A stretch of 64,000 nucleotides of DNA, taken from Aphanothece sacrum FPU1. GTDB lineage: Bacteria; Cyanobacteriota; Cyanobacteriia; Cyanobacteriales; Microcystaceae. This document shows positions 8,145 to 46,625 of the stretch, piece after piece. Both the position numbers and the translations under genes were made by a program. Every line of letters begins with the position of its first letter. Position 1 is the stretch's first letter. The stretch is taken from contig NZ_BDQK01000005.1 of NCBI RefSeq assembly GCF_003864295.1, forward strand, positions 248,001 to 312,000. The letters are read 5' to 3'. A model generated the notes under the pieces. It worked only from the letters and a program-made list of their open reading frames with translations. It was not told the origin of the DNA and ran no database searches.

Positions 8145-9029
8145 TTACTTATCACTTAACCAAGTTATTAAATCTCTTTCTGAATCAAAGTCTAATAACG
8201 CTTCTCCTAGTGTTTCTAATTCAGCAAAAGATAGCTGATAAATTTGCTCAGAAAAAATAGAATTAATCTGACCAATCCGACGATTTAGTTGGCGAATAAT
8301 TAAAGAAACTTCTGCTTGTTTTCCTTGTTCGAGTCCTTGTTCGAGTCCTTGTTCGAGTCCCTGTTCGAGTCCCTGTTCGAGTCCCTGTTCGAGTCCTTTT
8401 TGAATGATTTCTTGATAAATAACAGATTCTTGCATCATATCCTCTCGCAAAAATTGATGAATTATATTCTGTTTAAAGCGCAAACCGGCTAAGATTTGGC
8501 TACAACTGGCAACTTCTTGTCTAAGTTCAGTTACTTCTATTTTAGCAATTTCATCAGCAACTTGTTTCAATAAATTAGCCGGATTTTCTGTCGCAGTTAA
8601 TGTGGCTAAAGGAAGTAACGCTGTTTCCTGGAGAAACAAGTCTGGAGACTGTTCCCACATCCTCATAACTTGATATTGATGATGGGTAGACTCTAAGACA
8701 AACCGATTCTCAAAAGCTGCCTGATTTTGAGTAGGTTTTAACCAAATTAACACTTGAGTAATTGGTAAACGATACTGCCAATATAATCTTACCCAATAAT
8801 TTAGCATCCGTAAAGGCATAGGAGTTTCTTGCGAAATTTTAACCTGAAATTCTAAATGAAGAATTCTTTCTTGAGTGCGTAAAAAAGTAACAGAATCAGC
8901 CCTAATTGGATCAATATTTAACTCAGTTTTAAGGACAGTTACTTCTGATAGTTTTTCCCCTAAAATCCAACTCGCAAAATAGTTCGGGTATTTTTCTGAT
9001 AAATATTTACATAAATTATCATATGCCAT
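8145..9029 (-). CDS. Rpn-like PD-(D/E)XK nuclease-family protein with GLEQ repeats and DUF4351-like tail
   Basis: A 294-residue protein. The N-terminal half has the features of Rpn/PD-(D/E)XK transposase-like nucleases common in cyanobacteria: DSVTFLRTQERILHLEFQVK (residues 45-64), with the L-E-F-Q-x-K catalytic-type strand. Residues from about 208 contain six consecutive GLEQ tetrapeptides. The C-terminal part (VSLIIRQLNRRIG to SFAELETLGEALLDF) matches the DUF4351 pattern. Rpn proteins promote recA-independent recombination in E. coli; the role here is inference. The repeat block is a likely length-polymorphic site. Confidence 0.75.
   Translation of the reverse strand: MAYDNLCKYLSEKYPNYFASWILGEKLSEVTVLKTELNIDPIRADSVTFLRTQERILHLEFQVKISQETPMPLRMLNYWVRLYWQYRLPITQVLIWLKPTQNQAAFENRFVLESTHHQYQVMRMWEQSPDLFLQETALLPLATLTATENPANLLKQVADEIAKIEVTELRQEVASCSQILAGLRFKQNIIHQFLREDMMQESVIYQEIIQKGLEQGLEQGLEQGLEQGLEQGLEQGKQAEVSLIIRQLNRRIGQINSIFSEQIYQLSFAELETLGEALLDFDSERDLITWLSDK
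8324..8395. repeat. Six tandem 12-bp units encoding (GLEQ)6
   Basis: Six in-frame copies of CTTGTTCGAGTC / CCTGTTCGAGTC (plus-strand reading) lie inside the Rpn-like gene. The first three use CTTG and the last three CCTG, a synonymous difference. This suggests expansion by slippage from two variant units. Confidence 0.9.
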
Positions 9030-11225: not shown

Positions 11226-11996
11226 CTAACAATATTGTTCACAGAATTTAATTATATCAGATAGTTGTTCCGTTTGTTGAGGATAAATTAACTTGGGTCT
11301 GTTAATGATAATTAAAGGAATGCCTAATTCAGTAGCAACTGTACTTTTAATGTCTTCTCCTCCTAGTTCTCCTGATGCTTTAGTAATCACTAGATTAATG
11401 TCCCATTGTTGCCATAAAGCTTTCTCTAATTCTGCTATAATGGGGGGACGTAACGCAATTAAGCGATCGCTGCTAAATCCAGCTTTTAATCCTATCTCTA
11501 ATGAGGAAATTTTAGGCAGAATACGTGCATACAAAATAGACCTATTTTGCCATGTTTTAAATAAATGTAAAGGGTTACATCCCACAGTCAATAATACTCG
11601 TTTTTCTGCTAAATAATCACCATTAATTAAGGTATCAAAACTATCCAGTTGAATGACCTGACTATTAATAGGTAAACAAGGTCTTTCATAACGTAAATAA
11701 GGAATACAATATTCTTGAGAAAAGTTGATGACTTGTTGGGAAATATTAACCGCGTAAGGATGAGAAGCATCTATAATAGCGGTAATATTTTTTTGATGAC
11801 ATAATTTTCTCATTCCTTGCCTATCTAATTGTCCAACTTCTATCATCAAATTAGGAGCAATAGGATAAAGCTTTTTAGCACTAGCAGTTGTGACAGTGAC
11901 AACAGAGCAAAACTCATGAAACGCAATTGTCTCAGCAATGGTTACACTGTCGCTTGTTCCGCCAATTAACCAAATTTTACCATGATTAGAGTTCAT
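11226..11996 (-). CDS. cobK: Precorrin-6A reductase
   Basis: A 256-residue enzyme of the cobalamin (or pseudocobalamin) corrin-ring pathway that reduces precorrin-6A with NADPH. The N-terminus IWLIGGTSDSVTIAE, the ATHP-like IIDASHPYAVNISQQV, LRYERPCLP, LLTVGCNPL, and the terminal VITKASGELGGEDIK are family features. It lies 19 bp after a small membrane-protein gene and 8 bp before the DUF2470 gene, forming a probable three-gene operon. Confidence 0.92.
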   Translation of the reverse strand: MNSNHGKIWLIGGTSDSVTIAETIAFHEFCSVVTVTTASAKKLYPIAPNLMIEVGQLDRQGMRKLCHQKNITAIIDASHPYAVNISQQVINFSQEYCIPYLRYERPCLPINSQVIQLDSFDTLINGDYLAEKRVLLTVGCNPLHLFKTWQNRSILYARILPKISSLEIGLKAGFSSDRLIALRPPIIAELEKALWQQWDINLVITKASGELGGEDIKSTVATELGIPLIIINRPKLIYPQQTEQLSDIIKFCEQYC

Positions 11997-12213: not shown

Positions 12214-12392
12214 CTTAATTCTTTTATACTTATCAGGATCAAGGTTCTCTTACAAGTTTAGCAATTAATTTGTCAAAATTCAGCAATAAAAAATTATATT
12301 TGTGAGAATCATAAATTTATGTAAAAGACCCGCCCCTACGGATTTTGTGTAATTAAATTTTTCTACCTACTTAATTGTCTAATTATCATTAT

Positions 12393-14138: not shown

Positions 14139-14218
14139 TTTAACTTTCTGTAGGGTTTAAATAAAAGGAACTGCATTAAACCTTTTTTTTACTGCTATAA
14201 TGGAAAGGTATTATAACT

Positions 14219-14365
14219 CATAATTCATAATTCATAATTCATAATTCATAATTCATAATTCATAATTCATAATTCATAATTCATAATTCATAATTCATAA
14301 TTCATAATTCATAATTCATAATTCATAATTCATAATTCATAATTCATAATTCATAATTCATAATT
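14219..14365. repeat. Heptanucleotide tandem repeat, 21 copies of CATAATT
   Basis: Exactly 147 bp of perfect CATAATT repeats. The last copy contains the TGA stop codon (minus strand, 14358-14360) of the GT4 gene. It matches the class of short tandemly repeated repetitive (STRR) heptamers known in cyanobacteria. Perfect conservation implies recent expansion. Confidence 0.97.
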
Positions 14366-15575
14366 TATTTTCTGATAATAATTGGTTATACTGATTACCT
14401 AAATATTCCCAGGTATAGTTCTCTTTGATAAATTGTCGTCCATTTTTTGAAAGTTCTTCTCGTAATTGTTGATCTTCAAATAAACGACTAATTGCCTTTA
14501 TATACTCGTCTATTGTATTCGCTCGTAATGCTCGTAAAGGTTCGTTTTTTCCATCGGTTTCCATTCCTTCTAAACCACGATCACTAGCTACTACAGGAAC
14601 GCCTGCTGCCATGGCTTCCAGGGTTTTAAACTTCATACCAAACCCTGTCCTTAAAGGAATAACAGCTACCGTGGCCTGATGTAAATAGTCTACCACAGAA
14701 GGGACTCTACCTGTTACTGTAATCCCAGGAAGTTTAGCTAATTCTTGAACTTCTGGAGAGGGTTTAGAACCGACTAAGGTTAAGGTAGTATCAGAATATT
14801 TTTCTTGAAGTAAAGGTAATACTTTTTGACTAAAAAAAACTGCCCCATCAATATTAACAAAATAGTCTAATCCTCCGACAAAAATTAAATTATGACCACC
14901 AGGGTCATGGGAACGATAAGGAAAAGTTTCTAGGTCTACTCCATTAGCAATTAAAGTAATATTTGCTTGAGGTGCAAATTCTCTCATTTGTTGTTCATCT
15001 TCGTCTGTTGTTACCACAACATGGGAAAATTTAGAGATAGTTCTTTGTTCATATCGTCGTAATAAAGGAAGATATAAACGATCCCTAAATTCACTATCTG
15101 ATGTGTCTGTTTCTAACTGATTTAAACAAGTTTTATAAACAGAACTATGAATATTAATAACTGTTTTTATCTTTTGTTTCCATTGGGGACGAATATAAAT
15201 TTCATTAACACTATGTTCACAAGTAATTATATCAAACTTTTTATTGACAACAGCTTCATCTATCCATTGTTGAATTTCAGGTAAATAAAGATAGCGCACA
15301 TTAGGGGGAGTTCCTTCAATAAAAAATTGACTAAACCGCTTTATTTTTTCTAAAATCTTTGTCTTTTCTTCAGTAGGACGGGGAAAAATAATTAAGTCTG
15401 TTACATAATTTTTGAGTTGTTCAATTTCTGCCTCTGTCACGTCTTCTGAACGTAGAGTGATTAAGGTAATTTGATGATTTTCTGTAATCTTTTTGAGCAA
15501 ATTAAACGTTCTTCCTTGTGTTCCTCCACGACTAGGAGGATAGGGAAATGTGGCACAAATCATTAAAATATTCAT
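14358..15575 (-). CDS. Glycosyltransferase family 4 (GT-B fold)
   Basis: A 405-residue glycosyltransferase. The N-terminal domain starts with ILMICATFPYPPSRGGTQGR and the donor-binding C-terminal domain contains LIFVGGLDYFVNIDG, VTGRVPSVVDYLHQATVAVI, the LRTGFGMKFKTLEAMAAGVP motif and PVVASDRGLEGME. This is the GT4 pattern, with sugar-nucleotide binding around the E-A-M-A-A-G-V-P-V segment. It is the last gene of an operon with a GDP-mannose dehydratase and a GT2, 24 bp after the former, implying a role in exopolysaccharide or O-antigen assembly. Its stop codon lies inside the heptamer array. Confidence 0.9.
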   Translation of the reverse strand: MNILMICATFPYPPSRGGTQGRTFNLLKKITENHQITLITLRSEDVTEAEIEQLKNYVTDLIIFPRPTEEKTKILEKIKRFSQFFIEGTPPNVRYLYLPEIQQWIDEAVVNKKFDIITCEHSVNEIYIRPQWKQKIKTVINIHSSVYKTCLNQLETDTSDSEFRDRLYLPLLRRYEQRTISKFSHVVVTTDEDEQQMREFAPQANITLIANGVDLETFPYRSHDPGGHNLIFVGGLDYFVNIDGAVFFSQKVLPLLQEKYSDTTLTLVGSKPSPEVQELAKLPGITVTGRVPSVVDYLHQATVAVIPLRTGFGMKFKTLEAMAAGVPVVASDRGLEGMETDGKNEPLRALRANTIDEYIKAISRLFEDQQLREELSKNGRQFIKENYTWEYLGNQYNQLLSENKL

Positions 15576-15582
15576 ATATCAG

Positions 15583-15610
15583 TTATTAATTATTAATTAT
15601 CAATTATTTA
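15583..15610. repeat. Short heptamer repeat at the gmd 3' end
   Basis: TTATTAA, TTATTAA, TTATCAA and TTATTTA lie in tandem. The TCA at 15600-15602 is the complement of the TGA stop of the dehydratase gene. A degenerate member of the same heptamer class as 14219-14365. Confidence 0.7.
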
Positions 15611-16562
15611 ACTTATCTTCTACCATCATTTTAACCACATCTGGCATTTTATATTGTGCTTTCCAACCCAATTCTTCTTCAGCTTTAGTGGGGTTTCCTC
15701 GACTAATAGCTAAATCTGTGGGACGAAATAAACTTTGATCAGTAATGACATAATTTTGCCAATTTAATCCTAAACACTCAAAAGTTTTAACGACAAATTC
15801 CTCTAAAGAATAACTTTGTCCTGTAGCGATGACATAATCATCTGGTTGGTCTTGTTGTAACATTAAATACATGGCTTTAACATATTCTGGGGCCCATCCC
15901 CAATCTCGCGCAATAGAAACATTTCCTAAGTGTAATTGTTGATGGTTGCCTTGGGCAATATTACAAGCAGCAGCAACAATTTTTTGCGTCACAAACCGTT
16001 GGGGACGTAAAGGAGATTCATGATTAAATAAGATACCTGAACAAGCAAAAATACCGTAAGCTTCTCGATAGTTTGCTACCTCCCAAAAAGCCGCAGATTT
16101 AGCCACAGCATAGGGACTACGGGGACGAAAAGGGGTTAATTCATCAGCCGCTTGATCTCCTATATCTCCAAAACATTCACTAGAACCTGCATTATAAAAT
16201 TTAATTGGTGCGCCTGTAAAGCGGATTGCTTCTAAAAGATTTAAGGTTCCTGTGGCAATACTTTCTAAGGTTTCTACTGGTAATTCAAAGGATAATCCGA
16301 CAGAACTTTGACCCGCTAAATTATAAACTTCATCTGGTTTAATTTTGTTTAAAACTTGTAAAACACTACGAAAATCATTGAGGGACATAGATTCTAATTT
16401 GACTTTATCTTTAATCCCTAATTGTTGTAAATTTCGAAAAGATGACATTTGGGCATCTCTTGATGTGCCACAAACAATATATTCTTTTTCCAGTAAATAT
16501 TGAGCTAAATAAGTTCCATCTTGACCAGATATTCCACAAATTAAGGCTGTTTTTTGTTTCAT
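15600..16562 (-). CDS. gmd: GDP-mannose 4,6-dehydratase-like SDR enzyme
   Basis: A 320-residue extended short-chain dehydrogenase. The NAD(P) site GISGQDGTYLAQYLLEK, the NLAGQSSVGLSFELP motif, and the catalytic Tyr-Lys in RPRSPYAVAK are as in GDP-mannose 4,6-dehydratase. NHESPLRPQRFVTQKI, the GDP-mannose contact segment, supports that substrate. The product GDP-4-keto-6-deoxymannose leads to GDP-rhamnose or GDP-fucose. The C-terminus keeps FRPTDLAISRGNPTKAEEEL, as in Gmd. It is 35 bp downstream of the GT2 gene in one operon. Confidence 0.9.
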   Translation of the reverse strand: MKQKTALICGISGQDGTYLAQYLLEKEYIVCGTSRDAQMSSFRNLQQLGIKDKVKLESMSLNDFRSVLQVLNKIKPDEVYNLAGQSSVGLSFELPVETLESIATGTLNLLEAIRFTGAPIKFYNAGSSECFGDIGDQAADELTPFRPRSPYAVAKSAAFWEVANYREAYGIFACSGILFNHESPLRPQRFVTQKIVAAACNIAQGNHQQLHLGNVSIARDWGWAPEYVKAMYLMLQQDQPDDYVIATGQSYSLEEFVVKTFECLGLNWQNYVITDQSLFRPTDLAISRGNPTKAEEELGWKAQYKMPDVVKMMVEDKLNN

Positions 16563-16597: not shown

Positions 16598-17536
16598 TCA
16601 CTGTGGATTGTTTCCTGAAGTTATCATCATTTTAATGGCTTCTTGTAGATAGCCAATTTGACCATAAGCATAGACAAGATTATCAAAACTTAAAGCGGGA
16701 TTATTGATATATTTTAGGGACTTATAAAGACCCCTAACTAATCTTTCTCCTCCTCTGCCTAATTGTTCAATTCCGGTTCGTCCAGCAATTTCTTCTCGAT
16801 AACATTCACTAACCCCTTGCCACCAACTACGACGCAAAAACCAGTCAGCTTTGAGTCTTTCTGGGGCAACATTATGAGCAACTAAAGCATCAGGAAGATA
16901 GGCTACTTCCCATCCTTTATTCAAGGCCAATTCTGTCGTATATAATTCTTCATTAGACAACAGTTTTTTTCCCACTCTTCCTAAGTTAGCATCAAAGCCA
17001 CCAATTTGTTCTAAAAATGAGCGACGCATTGAATAATTTAATCCTCTAGGTGTTAACTGGGGATTATTAATATAAACTATTTTATCCCCTAAATCATAAG
17101 CCCCTAAACCCCCCGCTAAATCAGCAGAAATCCAATTTGGAGTGGGAATATTTTTAGGCCATATAAGAGTCACTTTACCACCAGCGATTGCTAATTTTTC
17201 ATTGAGTTGGTAAGCTTCAATTAACACACTTAACCATTGAGGAGTGGCGATCGCATCATCATCGAGATAAGCTATAATAGGAGCAGTTGTTTCTTTAGCC
17301 CCCCGATTACGAGCCACAGACAACCCTAAAATTGGCTCATAAACGTATCTGAGACGGGGATGGGATAGACGAGACTCCACAATCTCTTTTGTGCGGTCTG
17401 TGGAGGCATTATCTACCACTAAGACCTCATAATCTTCTAAGGTTTGGTTTAAAAGGCTATCAATGGCATCCCCTAAGTAGGAATCACGATTATAGGTACA
17501 AATAATGGCAGCAATGGGGACAGGTTTATCTAACAT
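16598..17536 (-). CDS. Glycosyltransferase family 2
   Basis: A 312-residue GT-A enzyme: AAIICTYNRDSYLGDAIDSL and VLVVDNASTDRTKEIV bind the nucleotide, and IAYLDDDAIATPQWL carries the metal-binding D-D-D. The later ETED-like segment is SNEELYTTELALNKGWEVAY. It resembles GT2 enzymes of cyanobacterial exopolysaccharide clusters such as HpsE, but the acceptor is unknown. It is the first gene of the glycan operon. The ATG at 17536 lies in the first unit of a 50-bp tandem repeat that extends upstream and must contain or displace the promoter. Confidence 0.88.
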   Translation of the reverse strand: MLDKPVPIAAIICTYNRDSYLGDAIDSLLNQTLEDYEVLVVDNASTDRTKEIVESRLSHPRLRYVYEPILGLSVARNRGAKETTAPIIAYLDDDAIATPQWLSVLIEAYQLNEKLAIAGGKVTLIWPKNIPTPNWISADLAGGLGAYDLGDKIVYINNPQLTPRGLNYSMRRSFLEQIGGFDANLGRVGKKLLSNEELYTTELALNKGWEVAYLPDALVAHNVAPERLKADWFLRRSWWQGVSECYREEIAGRTGIEQLGRGGERLVRGLYKSLKYINNPALSFDNLVYAYGQIGYLQEAIKMMITSGNNPQ

Positions 17537-17707
17537 ATTAGTGAGAATGGGAAAATAGGGACTATGGGGACAGGTTTATCTAATATATTAGTGAAAATTA
17601 GAAAATAGGGACTATGGGGACAGGTTTATCTAATATATTAGTGAGAATTAGAAAATAGGGACTATGGGGACAGGTTTATCTAATATATTAGTGAGAATTA
17701 GAAAATA
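17514..17707. repeat. Four tandem 50-bp units starting in the GT2 gene
   Basis: Units begin at 17521, 17571, 17621 and 17671 with CAGGTTTATCTAATATATTA. The first unit contains the GT2 start codon and codons MLDKPVP. In units 2-4 the start codon is ATA instead of ATG. The copies are nearly identical. Each distal unit contains the perfect palindrome CTAATATATTAG. Confidence 0.93.
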
Positions 17708-17777
17708 TTGTCAAAAACCCGCCCCTACGATAGGTTGCTAAAATCCTCAATAAAGGTTTATAATTCTTGAAGGGAAA

Positions 17778-17953
17778 CTGCTGCGTTGGTGACTGCCAAT
17801 AAAGTTTTTTGATCTATGCTTTGAGTTTATAGGGAGCTAACCTATTTTTGTGGTAGTAAACCAAGCTTGTACTTGGAAACAGAAACAAAAAAAGTCGGCA
17901 CCCACCTGGTTCACCCAGGTCATAAACTGAGGTAAAACGGCGCGGCAGTTTTT
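17778..17953 (+). ncRNA. ssaA: Structured RNA candidate, possibly cyanobacterial 6S RNA
   Basis: The ends pair over 10 bp: CTGCTGCGTT (17778-17787) with GGCGCGGCAG (17939-17948), followed by TTTTT. AGTTTAT (17824-17830) pairs with ATAAACT (17922-17928). Inner local hairpins are ATAGG/CCTAT, CCAAG/CTTGG and ACCTGG/CCAGGT. The size of about 171 nt, the closing stem and the AACTGAGGTAAAACGGCGCG 3' region agree with my recollection of cyanobacterial 6S RNA. This cannot be verified without a covariance search. There is no open frame here. Confidence 0.5.
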
Positions 17954-18060
17954 CCTATTTTTGGTAAATGTTAGGGTTTCTAGATATAAAAGTCTTGAGT
18001 TCACCACAAAATGTCATAGATAACCTAGAATTAAACAAACCCTAACCTAATTGACAACTG

Positions 18061-19341
18061 GTGCAACTAATAGCCCCATCAAATCTTCTCAAATGCCCTA
18101 ATTTTCCAGGGAATATAATCAAGTTATCCCAAGGATTAACAGTAATTCATCATTATATCCCTGTTACCTCGGTGGTAGTGGTTGATGTTTGGGTAAAAGC
18201 AGGGACAATGGCCGAACCCAAGAATTGGCAGGGTATGGCTCACTTTTTAGAGCATATGATCTTTAAGGGAACCAAGAATATTTTGCCAGGGGTATTTGAT
18301 CAAGTGGTGGAACATAATGGGGGGGTCACAAATGCAGCGACAAGTCATGATTATGCTCATTTTTTCTTGACTACAGCTTCGCCCTATTTAGCCGATACTT
18401 TGCCCTATTTGGCGGAAATTCTTCTACAAGCGGAAATTGCCGAGGATGAGTTTATTCGGGAAAGGGATGTGGTACTAGAAGAAATAAGGTCTTGTTATGA
18501 TGATCCTGATTGGTTAGGGTTTCAAACTCTCTGTGAAAGTTTATATCAACACCATCCTTACGGAAAGTCAATTTTAGGTGATGAATCTCGATTAAGACAA
18601 TATTCGCCCCATCAGATGCGCTGTTTTCATCGTACCCATTATCAACCTCAGAACATGACTGTGGTGATTGTGGGCAATGTACAACAAGATAAAGCCCTCT
18701 CCTTAGTTGAGACGGAATTTAAGGATTTTAATGTTCCCTCGGAATGTCCCCCCACAGGTTGGAAAGCAGAACCCCCTTTACAGGAAGTACGGCGCAATAA
18801 AATGTACTTACAAAGATTAGAACAAGGAAGGTTATTAATGGGATGGGTGGGGCCAGGAATTGATAAGTTAGAAGATGGGTTAGGATTAGACTTAATCTCG
18901 GTGATTTTAGGCGCGGGAAGGACTTCTCGGTTAGTTCGGGAGTTACGGGAAGAAAAGCACTTGGTTTGGCATATAGAAAGCAGTTTTTCTTTACAAAAAG
19001 ACTCTAGTTTGTTTACAATTGGGGCTTGGTTAGATGTGCCTTATTTAGAAAAAGTAGAAGATTTAATTTGCGATCGCCTAGTTCAATTACAAGTAGAACT
19101 TATAAGCGAAGCAGAATTAAATCGGGCTAAACGACTATTATGTCATGATTATATCTTTTCGACGGAAACTCCTGGTCAATTAGCGGGTTTATATGGTTAT
19201 TATGAGACTATTGCTTCGGCTGAACTTTCTTTATCTTATCCCCTAATTATTGAAAAATTGTCCCCCCAAGACTTACAACGCATTGCCTGTGAATATTTGT
19301 CTCCTGAACGGTATGCTATTACAGTAATGCAGCCTTGTTAA
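18061..19341 (+). CDS. M16 family zinc metallopeptidase (active subunit)
   Basis: A 426-residue peptidase of the mitochondrial-processing-peptidase-like M16B group. The inverted zinc motif HFLEH is at residues 61-65, with a downstream glutamate in RDVVLEEIRSCYDD as third ligand. The start is GTG at 18061. A second M16 gene follows after 20 bp, so the two form the usual catalytic/non-catalytic pair. The substrate is unknown; processing of exported peptides is a family-level inference. Confidence 0.93.
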   Translation: MQLIAPSNLLKCPNFPGNIIKLSQGLTVIHHYIPVTSVVVVDVWVKAGTMAEPKNWQGMAHFLEHMIFKGTKNILPGVFDQVVEHNGGVTNAATSHDYAHFFLTTASPYLADTLPYLAEILLQAEIAEDEFIRERDVVLEEIRSCYDDPDWLGFQTLCESLYQHHPYGKSILGDESRLRQYSPHQMRCFHRTHYQPQNMTVVIVGNVQQDKALSLVETEFKDFNVPSECPPTGWKAEPPLQEVRRNKMYLQRLEQGRLLMGWVGPGIDKLEDGLGLDLISVILGAGRTSRLVRELREEKHLVWHIESSFSLQKDSSLFTIGAWLDVPYLEKVEDLICDRLVQLQVELISEAELNRAKRLLCHDYIFSTETPGQLAGLYGYYETIASAELSLSYPLIIEKLSPQDLQRIACEYLSPERYAITVMQPC

Positions 19342-19361: not shown

Positions 19362-20639
19362 ATGCACAAAGTCAAAGGAACGGGCCAAACTCCAGGGATT
19401 CATCATTTAATTTTAGATAATGGTATAACAGTAATTGTGAGGGAAAATCCCTCGGCTGATGTGATTGCCGGGCGTTTTTTTCTGAAAAATAGTGGATCTA
19501 TCTGGGAAACACGAGAAAAAGCGGGATTATCTAATTTATTAGCTACTGTTATTACTAAAGGAACACAAAGATTATCCTCTGTAGAAATTGCTGAAGCGGT
19601 AGAATCAATTGGGGCTAGTTTAGGGGCTGATGCTGCCTCAGATTATTTGGTGATGAGTCTTAAGACGGTTTCGGCTGATTTTCACCCCATGCTGGAATTA
19701 ATGGCGGAAATTATGCGATCGCCTTCTTTTCCTGAAGCGGAAATTACTTTAGAAAAGCGTCTCATTGCCCAAAATATTCGTTCTCAACAAGAACAACCCT
19801 TTAATGTGGCTTTTAATCAATTACGGGAAGCCATGTATCCGAATCATCCTTATGGGGTATCGGTGTTGGGAACCCCCGAAAGCCTATCGAAATTGAGGCA
19901 AGAAGACCTACAAAAGTATCATCAGACCCATTTTAGACCTGATAATCTGATTGTGAGTTTATCGGGGCGTATTACCGTTGATGAAGGGATGAGATTAATT
20001 GATAAAACTTTCGGAGATTGGCAAGTTCCTTCTGAGAGTGTAAATAGTCCTATTTTTCCGATTTTAACGCCTTGTCCGTCTCAAAATTTGATTTTTCAAG
20101 AGACGCAACAATCGATTGTGATGTTAGGATATTTGACGGTTGGGGTCAAGAGTCCTGATTATGCGGCCCTTAAATTATTGAGTACTTATTTAGGTAATGG
20201 GTTATCTAGTCGTTTGTTTGTAGAATTACGGGAAAAACGGGGATTAGCTTATGATGTTTCGGCGGTTTATCCGACTCGTTTAGAAACCTCTCAATTTGTG
20301 GTTTATATTGGCACTGCGCCCCAAAATACTACTATTGCTTTAGAAGGTTTACAAGGGGAAACAGAGCGGTTATCTGAGTGTTTATTGACCCCTGAAGAAT
20401 TACAAACAGCTAAGAATAAATTATTGGGACAATATGCGTTAGGGAAACAAACTAATTCAGAAGTTGCTCAATTATATGGTTGGTATGAGACGTTAGGATT
20501 AGGGATAGAATTTGATCAGGATTTTCAGGAAAAAATTAATCAAGTTACTCCAGAAAAGGCGCAACAAGTGGCTAAGGATTATTTACTTTCTCCCTATTTA
20601 TCGGTGGTTGGGCCGGAATCTGCGTTAGCCCAGATATAA
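19362..20639 (+). CDS. M16 family peptidase homologue (non-catalytic partner)
   Basis: A 425-residue M16 protein in which the HxxEH motif is replaced (AGLSNLLATVITKGT), so no zinc site is formed. The C-terminal domain keeps LSSRLFVELREKRGLAYDVS, the Arg/Tyr segment used for substrate binding in M16 pairs. It probably forms a heterodimer with the product of the preceding gene. A REP-type palindrome follows the stop by 18 bp. Confidence 0.93.
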   Translation: MHKVKGTGQTPGIHHLILDNGITVIVRENPSADVIAGRFFLKNSGSIWETREKAGLSNLLATVITKGTQRLSSVEIAEAVESIGASLGADAASDYLVMSLKTVSADFHPMLELMAEIMRSPSFPEAEITLEKRLIAQNIRSQQEQPFNVAFNQLREAMYPNHPYGVSVLGTPESLSKLRQEDLQKYHQTHFRPDNLIVSLSGRITVDEGMRLIDKTFGDWQVPSESVNSPIFPILTPCPSQNLIFQETQQSIVMLGYLTVGVKSPDYAALKLLSTYLGNGLSSRLFVELREKRGLAYDVSAVYPTRLETSQFVVYIGTAPQNTTIALEGLQGETERLSECLLTPEELQTAKNKLLGQYALGKQTNSEVAQLYGWYETLGLGIEFDQDFQEKINQVTPEKAQQVAKDYLLSPYLSVVGPESALAQI

Positions 20640-33929: not shown

Positions 33930-34170
33930 GCAATTATTCCCCCCTTTTTAAGGGCAGGGCTGATTCATTTTCCCTCGTACTGACACCTTAAAAGGTGCAG
34001 CTACACGGGCAAAGCCCGCCTGCGCGGGCTGAATTATTTATTAATATTTAATATTAGATGAAAAAGCCTGCCTTCGCAGGCTTCGTGCGTATAGCCCCAG
34101 CCTTTAGGCTGAGGTAATTTAAAACAATGAAACAGCCCTGCTTTTTAAGGGGGGTTAGGGGGGATCAATT
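33930..34170. repeat. Composite palindromic element (MITE-like)
   Basis: Outer inverted repeats: CCCCCCTTTTTAAGGGCAGG then GCTG at 33939 and CAGCCCTGCTTTTTAAGGGG at 34133. Inside are three hairpins: GCCCGC/GCGGGC, AAGCCTGC/GCAGGCTT, and CAGCC/GGCTG. There is no coding frame. It occupies most of the gap between nurA and the small HicB-like gene. Confidence 0.7.
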
Positions 34171-46449: not shown

Positions 46450-46625
46450 CACCACCTAAATAACAGGGGGCGTAGGGGCGGGTTTTTAAGACAATTTCTC
46501 GATTCTCACAAGTAGGCTAGATCAACCCGACCCTACAAAATTTTAGGTTCATAAATAATTATTAGTAAGTGATACATTTTTCACTCTATTGGGCATAATA
46601 ACATTATACTATTACGCTTCATTCT

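Follow-up and report, generated by a model that had tools for sequence, protein, structure and literature searches.

In Aphanothece sacrum FPU1, the first gene of a glycan operon, encoding a family 2 glycosyltransferase (GT2), begins inside a tandem array of near-identical units. This raises the question of where the repeated sequence came from, and whether the gene lent its start to the array or received it from there. We examined it in the window, that is, the whole stretch of 64,000 nucleotides analyzed here, together with the rest of the genome and with the corresponding loci of relatives (features in Table 1). Very probably, a dispersed element of ~65 bp with inverted-repeat ends, flanked by the GT2 operon on one side and the 6S RNA gene on the other, has been amplified internally in tandem and has donated the start of GT2.

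Table 1. Features around the 5' end of GT2 (positions in the window)
Feature	Position	Strand	Basis or content
Group 1 glycosyltransferase (GT1), third gene	14358-15575	-	Pfam PF13692, E 3.5e-27
GDP-mannose 4,6-dehydratase-like epimerase (GMD), next gene after GT2	15600-16562	-	Pfam PF16363, E 2.1e-108
Family 2 glycosyltransferase (GT2), 312 aa	16598-17536	-	Pfam PF00535, E 3.3e-30
Expanded dispersed element, four left-part units and one right end	17514-17728	+	profile match; genome search with element consensus
Unit 1	17514-17563	+	GT2 start codon and CTAACATATTAG
GT2 start codon, within the element	17534-17536	-	only in-frame ATG/GTG/TTG before codon 40
Unit 2	17564-17613	+	ATA replaces ATG; palindrome CTAATATATTAG
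Unit 3	17614-17663	+	ATA; palindrome CTAATATATTAG
Unit 4 (44 bp only)	17664-17707	+	ATA; palindrome CTAATATATTAG; continues into the element's right part
Promoter-like TTGACA-18-TAATAT toward GT2	17685-17714	-	promoter-pattern match, chance number
Right terminal inverted repeat AAACCCGCCCCTAC	17715-17728 (G000:C5:265715-265728)	+	exact, 0 mismatches
Promoter-like TTGCTA-18-TATAAT, placed as for 6S RNA	17735-17764	+	promoter-pattern match
6S (SsrS) RNA gene	17772-17955	+	Rfam RF00013, 110.2 bits, E 5e-23
M16 peptidase	18061-19341	+	Pfam PF00675/PF05193

The array unit is the left part of a dispersed element

An earlier note on this DNA had described a 50-bp tandem array of four units, and TRF recovers it at 17514-17707 (period 50, 3.9 copies, 96% matches without indels, score 360), with a length of 194 bases that is far beyond chance. 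The composition of the units is also as the note had it. The first contains GT2 codons 1-7, beginning with the start codon (CAT at 17534-17536, read on the minus strand), together with two bases of codon 8; the three distal ones have TAT (ATA on the minus strand) at the place of the start codon and a perfect palindrome, CTAATATATTAG, where unit 1 has CTAACATATTAG. Taking unit 3 as the reference, unit 1 differs at three positions and unit 2 at one. Beyond unit 4 the repeat continues into AAACCCGCCCCTAC and ends at 17728, which is the right end of the dispersed element; this right end is exact, and the left end of the array is degenerate. The 6-bp seam within the array, GGGACT, has no counterpart in a single element. 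By eye, the seams of the window and of another locus in the genome, L158, are similar.

The array unit corresponds to the left ~44 bp of the ~65-bp element, whose 14-bp inverted ends are GTAGGGGCGGGTTT and AAACCCGCCCCTAC and whose consensus, taken from copies aligned with their flanks, is GTAGGGGCGGGTTTATCTAA(T/C)ATATTTGTTAGAATC...AAATTTTGTTAAAAACCCGCCCCTAC. Searching the genome with one unit plus the seam yielded 46 matches, four of them the array itself and most of the others partial; many of these, when read with their flanks, align as one element with both ends, and among the 34 places that we fetched about eight are, by eye, unrelated short matches. A profile built from 15 full copies matches 17664-17728 with an E-value of 6.3e-15 as well as the left part of every other array unit, and a genome search with the element consensus hits the same places in the array. 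Elsewhere in the window, the profile detects a further full copy (46472-46536, minus strand; profile match 46472-46535, E 1.2e-14), a partial one (12290-12339, plus strand; profile match 12295-12339, E 6.2e-8), and a weak match (19521-19548, plus strand, E 0.0048).

The family is present in high copy number. The end GTAGGGGCGGGTTT occurs exactly 233 times in the genome (115 + 118; reversed control 0 + 0), and 179 + 180 times with at most one mismatch (reversed control 3 + 1). It is found exactly in 15 of 57 other genomes of the same family or order, at most 48 times, and this difference indicates that the family expanded in the present genome. The contig that includes the window (C5, 312 kb read) carries 22 element clusters, of which 18 overlap no ORF of at least 100 aa. 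Among 101 loci of relatives there are only two element matches at E <0.001, both more than 1 kb from the GT2 start.

Other copies contain part-elements in tandem as well. On C5, five of the 22 clusters lie in tandem arrays (at 11391, 114951, 174584, and 195093, and the GT2 array), three through TRF rows flagged as element by a string test and two through overlap with profile clusters. At other places in the genome, arrays with a period of at least 25 were obtained in 9 of 16 scanned loci, which were picked for their clustered look and are not a fair sample, two of them (L150, L151) being on C5. Judging by eye which part is repeated, the left part is amplified, as at GT2, in L144 (38 bp, 5.3 copies), L146 (55 bp, 2.8 copies), and L153 (41 bp, 3.9-4.5 copies), and the whole or nearly whole element, in some cases with flank, in L149, L150, L151, L156, L157, and L159. 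In L144 (G000:C1:179200-179750), an array of a short GTAGGGGCGAATGTTT-like unit adjoins the 38-bp array. Doubled element ends with a period of ~16 bp, in which GTAGGGGCGGGTTT stands twice in succession, were seen in L145, L153, L158, and L162, and on the other strand in L148 and L154. The window has further repeats of other kinds: a heptamer, ATAATTC, repeated 21.9 times at 14213-14365 and reaching a few bases into the 3' end of the GT1 gene; a 12-bp tandem repeat, TCCTTGTTCGAG, at 8322-8398 (TRF, 6.4 copies, 96% matches); and a single match to a CRISPR repeat family at 34008-34031, just over threshold (37 versus 35 bits).

The array had been taken for a multiplied start of the glycan operon. 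The 5' end of GT2, which opens the GT2-GMD-GT1 operon, does carry a tandem multiplication, but what was copied is the left part of a dispersed palindromic element, and not a start native to GT2. Given the dispersed copies, we reject a duplication confined to this gene start. An account in which GT2's own start region underwent a plain local tandem duplication and its likeness to the element is coincidental fits the 96% similarity of the units and the fact that they hold the gene start; however, members of the element family at other genomic sites match the unit, an exact right terminus adjoins it, and the leader codons are not conserved in most relatives, so that we find this account hardly credible.

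The GT2 start codon and its probable origin

Codons 1-7 of GT2 (MLDKPVP), start included, are encoded by the element strand. Downstream, GTG at codon 40 is the first further in-frame start, within the GT2 domain, which begins at residue 10; upstream, the 14th codon from the ATG is an in-frame TAA. When GT2 is compared with 46 loci (L009-L054), homology starts at residues 4-8 in 41 of them, and at residue 1 or 2 in L018, L027, L029, L038, and L044; the nearest available relatives are 82-83% identical. Of 68 rows of relatives, 61 have an ATG at a distance of 2-5 codons upstream of the conserved Ile, mostly with other leaders (e.g., MSNPQ). The comparison used the ATG closest to the domain, and hence favors short leaders in relatives; some genomes are represented by more than one row, and no row was obtained for 4 of 73 loci. 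Of the remaining seven rows, L027 and L047 have no ATG, and L038, L044, L045, L052, and L053 have it at 7-25 codons. Given the ATG and other leaders in relatives, and a next start only at codon 40, the element most likely donated the present start codon of GT2.

The string ATGTTAGATAAACC occurs nine times in the genome, eight times in clear elements (that of GT2 included) and once in a terminal fragment (L163). Only the GT2 copy opens a long frame (312 aa), the other eight frames having 8-41 aa. Within the 22 clusters of C5, one other ORF start falls inside an element (176253), by eye in an over-extended frame. One strand of some copies of this repeat offers an ATG near its end (MLDKPxP), and the difference between ATA and ATG among the array units is variation also seen among copies elsewhere: 7 of 38 tallied element contexts carry ACAT, which gives ATG, so that no new mutation is needed to explain the donor ATG. 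The GT2 gene is intact, on a branch (0.107) that is not long beside those of its nearest relatives (0.07-0.13), so it seems to be in use. The leader MLDKPVP could itself be partly like a native one, as L044 begins MLD...KPV and the leader of L029 ends in VP, and use of a rare ATT start at Ile8 is conceivable.

On the far side of the array, between it and the M16 peptidase gene, lies a 6S RNA gene that the earlier note did not mention and that is the sole match in this genome. All 39 genomes searched have at least one 6S match, two in the case of G032, and in one genome only below the curated cut-off. The promoter-like TTGCTA-18-TATAAT stands 7 bases from the 5' end of 6S and 6 bases from the element, and by eye many relatives have similar -10 sequences at the matching place. 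In Synechocystis, 6S RNA affects recovery from nitrogen depletion (PMC5721685). In relatives, 6S RNA precedes an M16 peptidase in 12 of 29 loci (L209 by manual count). None of these 29 loci has GT2 next to 6S RNA; L209 and L213 include <600 bases upstream, and ten further matches gave no locus. Conversely, 6S RNA is found in none of 72 GT2 loci of relatives. Four GT2 loci (L044, L045, L052, L053) do have genes of the M16 family, but at 21-28% identity, too low for them to be the 6S-adjacent one. The element is beside 6S RNA in none of the relatives examined.

What may once have separated the two sides is suggested by a paralogue of GT1. In 9 of the 11 loci of relatives examined it lies before GT2 and on its strand (in pieces in L020 and 54% alike in L022; absent in L013 and L021). 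Its best match among the 39 genomes is in G012, 79% identical to the copy of L009, and there (L215, G012:C3:4390000-4399500) the paralogue is divergent from 6S RNA, where the window has GT2; GT2 and GMD of G012 are >2 Mb from its 6S RNA. In the genome of the window the best match to the paralogue is only 45% and is the window's own GT1, so that the paralogue is lacking. Because it stands before GT2 and beside 6S in relatives and is lacking here, the element probably marks a deletion joint. The simplest reading would be an ancestral row of 6S - paralogue - GT2 - GMD - GT1, from which the paralogue was lost with the native start of GT2; as no single genome shows 6S, paralogue, and GT2 in one row, we offer this order as an inferred one. 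The flank at 17729-18100 has no clear homology to the GT2 loci of relatives (best E 0.48). By a hand-made profile the flank by the element, which is also the 6S promoter-like site, is weakly like a native leader (S-N-L; P 0.012 for random 60-mers).

It is also conceivable, though rather improbable, that the 6S-M16 block and the GT2 operon had never been neighbors and were fused by recombination between element copies, with no deletion. Their separation in all the 6S and GT2 loci of relatives and the position of the junction at the element agree with such a fusion, whereas a single deletion would explain why the GT1 paralogue connects the two sides (it stands before GT2 in relatives and adjoins 6S in G012), no relative examined has the element beside 6S, and the flank has that weak likeness to a native leader.

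Under the preferred reading of a captured start, a deletion (or insertion) ending at the element would have removed the native start of GT2, most likely along with the glycosyltransferase gene retained in relatives, where it precedes GT2 or adjoins 6S. An ATG that some copies carry on one of their strands would then have served, being in frame with codon 8, as the new start, giving a protein with the predicted N-terminus (M)LDKPVPIAAIICTYNR. Replication slippage or template switching in the palindrome would have multiplied the left part, the distal units with ATA would not serve as starts, and the extra units are most likely only untranslated spacer. We infer the order of these steps, from loss of the native start through takeover by the ATG to copying of the left part.

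Class of the element and known systems

The element looks like a MITE or a REP-type repeat. Two features of MITEs are present, terminal inverted repeats (the 14-bp pair GTAGGGGCGGGTTT/AAACCCGCCCCTAC) and many dispersed non-coding copies (the 233 exact ends and the 18 of 22 C5 clusters without an ORF of at least 100 aa). Over 26 full-length elements, with k = 2-5 and four boundaries, there is no clear excess of target-site duplication (largest 3 of 26 versus 1.64); with 3 bases trimmed, TA matches in 16 of 26 against a null of 16.41, an agreement explained by TA belonging to the element ends. Neither a mobilizing enzyme nor a parent transposon was identified among two candidate end pairs of C5 and the loci of 15 Y1 transposase matches. 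In two candidate end pairs on C5, 1.1 and 4.2 kb apart, the listed ORFs include no transposase by eye, and a candidate insertion sequence with these ends (C5:176191-177333) was rejected, as it holds a dehydrogenase-like gene (named by eye) and no transposase. The genome has 15 matches to Y1 transposases, a count in which RAYT is not told from IS200, and 3 of the 15 loci have the element versus about 3.3 expected (by hand, at one cluster per 14 kb), no association beyond expectation.

GTAG REPs are dispersed intergenic palindromes of high copy number with GTAG/CTAC ends, found in cyanobacteria including Cyanothece (GTAG-15, -16); they often lie in clusters in which flanking DNA is repeated too, ORFs frequently take their stop codon from a REP end, and some REPs are at ORF N-termini, many of these perhaps untranslated (Di Nocera et al. 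2013, PMC3733652). Our element resembles these REPs and REP dimers in being a short dispersed intergenic palindrome with GTAG/CTAC ends and high copy number, sometimes at an ORF N-terminus. In GTAG REPs, however, the tag is unpaired beside a short-loop hairpin (2-15 bases), whereas by eye we found no stem within one half of the element, and its GTAG can pair with CTAC across the element, over a middle of ~37 bases; the comparison with GTAG-15 and -16 is by description. Cyanobacterial MITEs such as Nezha are similar in their inverted-repeat ends, non-coding nature, many copies, and mostly intergenic positions (Zhou et al. 2008, as cited in PMC3733652 and PMC10969869). Against them stand a length of 65 bp, just under the 70-300 bp given for MITEs in PMC3733652, and the lack of a detected target duplication and parent transposon.

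A minisatellite in a MITE-like element is found at the GT2 array, with its four units and exact right end. The BrickBuilt MITE of Porphyromonas gingivalis likewise has a tandem minisatellite within a small inverted-repeat element, but its unit is of 23 bp and it is always intergenic and so donates no start codon (PMC4596501). Rickettsia palindromic elements also become part of proteins, by in-frame fusion within genes (PMC10969869); here only the start and the first seven codons come from the element. With no target duplication and no unpaired tag, we go no further than calling it a small dispersed element with inverted-repeat ends and a minisatellite inside. The 14-base end was not found in open-licence full text (figures excluded, and with a ranking that could hide an occurrence), in which 11- and 13-base strings of the ends occur in four papers, by title on Coxiella, zebrafish (two), and chicken. 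Among the literature listings, no title concerns a cyanobacterial element that supplies a gene with its start codon.

Regulation and meaning

The earlier note also suggested that the multiplication may alter transcription. A regulatory role of the array or of its copy number is unsupported, since promoter-like matches in the region are at chance number, 2 found versus 2.0 expected, one of them positioned on the opposite strand as for 6S RNA. None of 200 shuffles of the leader RNA folds as well as the actual sequence (z -3.31), an excess to be expected of inverted and tandem repeats, and in the predicted fold of a longer leader the AUG of GT2 is mostly paired (mean unpaired 0.10). An array governing the GT2 operon, perhaps also 6S, through spacing, mRNA structure, or the number of promoters, with slippage in unit number as a contingency switch, would accord with the near identity of the units, which makes slippage easy, with TTGACA-18-TAATAT reading toward GT2 from the distal end, with the folding and the paired AUG, and with the mere 6 bp between the element and the 6S promoter-like site. 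Yet the promoter count is that of chance, the folding excess is expected of repeats and concerns the multi-unit leader, and similar arrays lie between genes elsewhere in the genome; we regard such a role as unlikely. We give slightly less credence still to a combined version, in which the start-donating repeat that captured GT2 and its slippage-prone array form a variable-number switch acting on the glycan operon and 6S at once.

The array is an instructive case of a known kind, both a minisatellite within a MITE and REPs at ORF N-termini being already described (PMC4596501 and PMC3733652). It suggests how a conserved gene can come to start within a small dispersed repeat, here probably where a gene was lost, and it is one of several cases in this genome of such elements having part of their sequence amplified in tandem. 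Should unit number differ between strains, one could test here whether such arrays have any effect on the divergent GT2 and 6S genes or are neutral.
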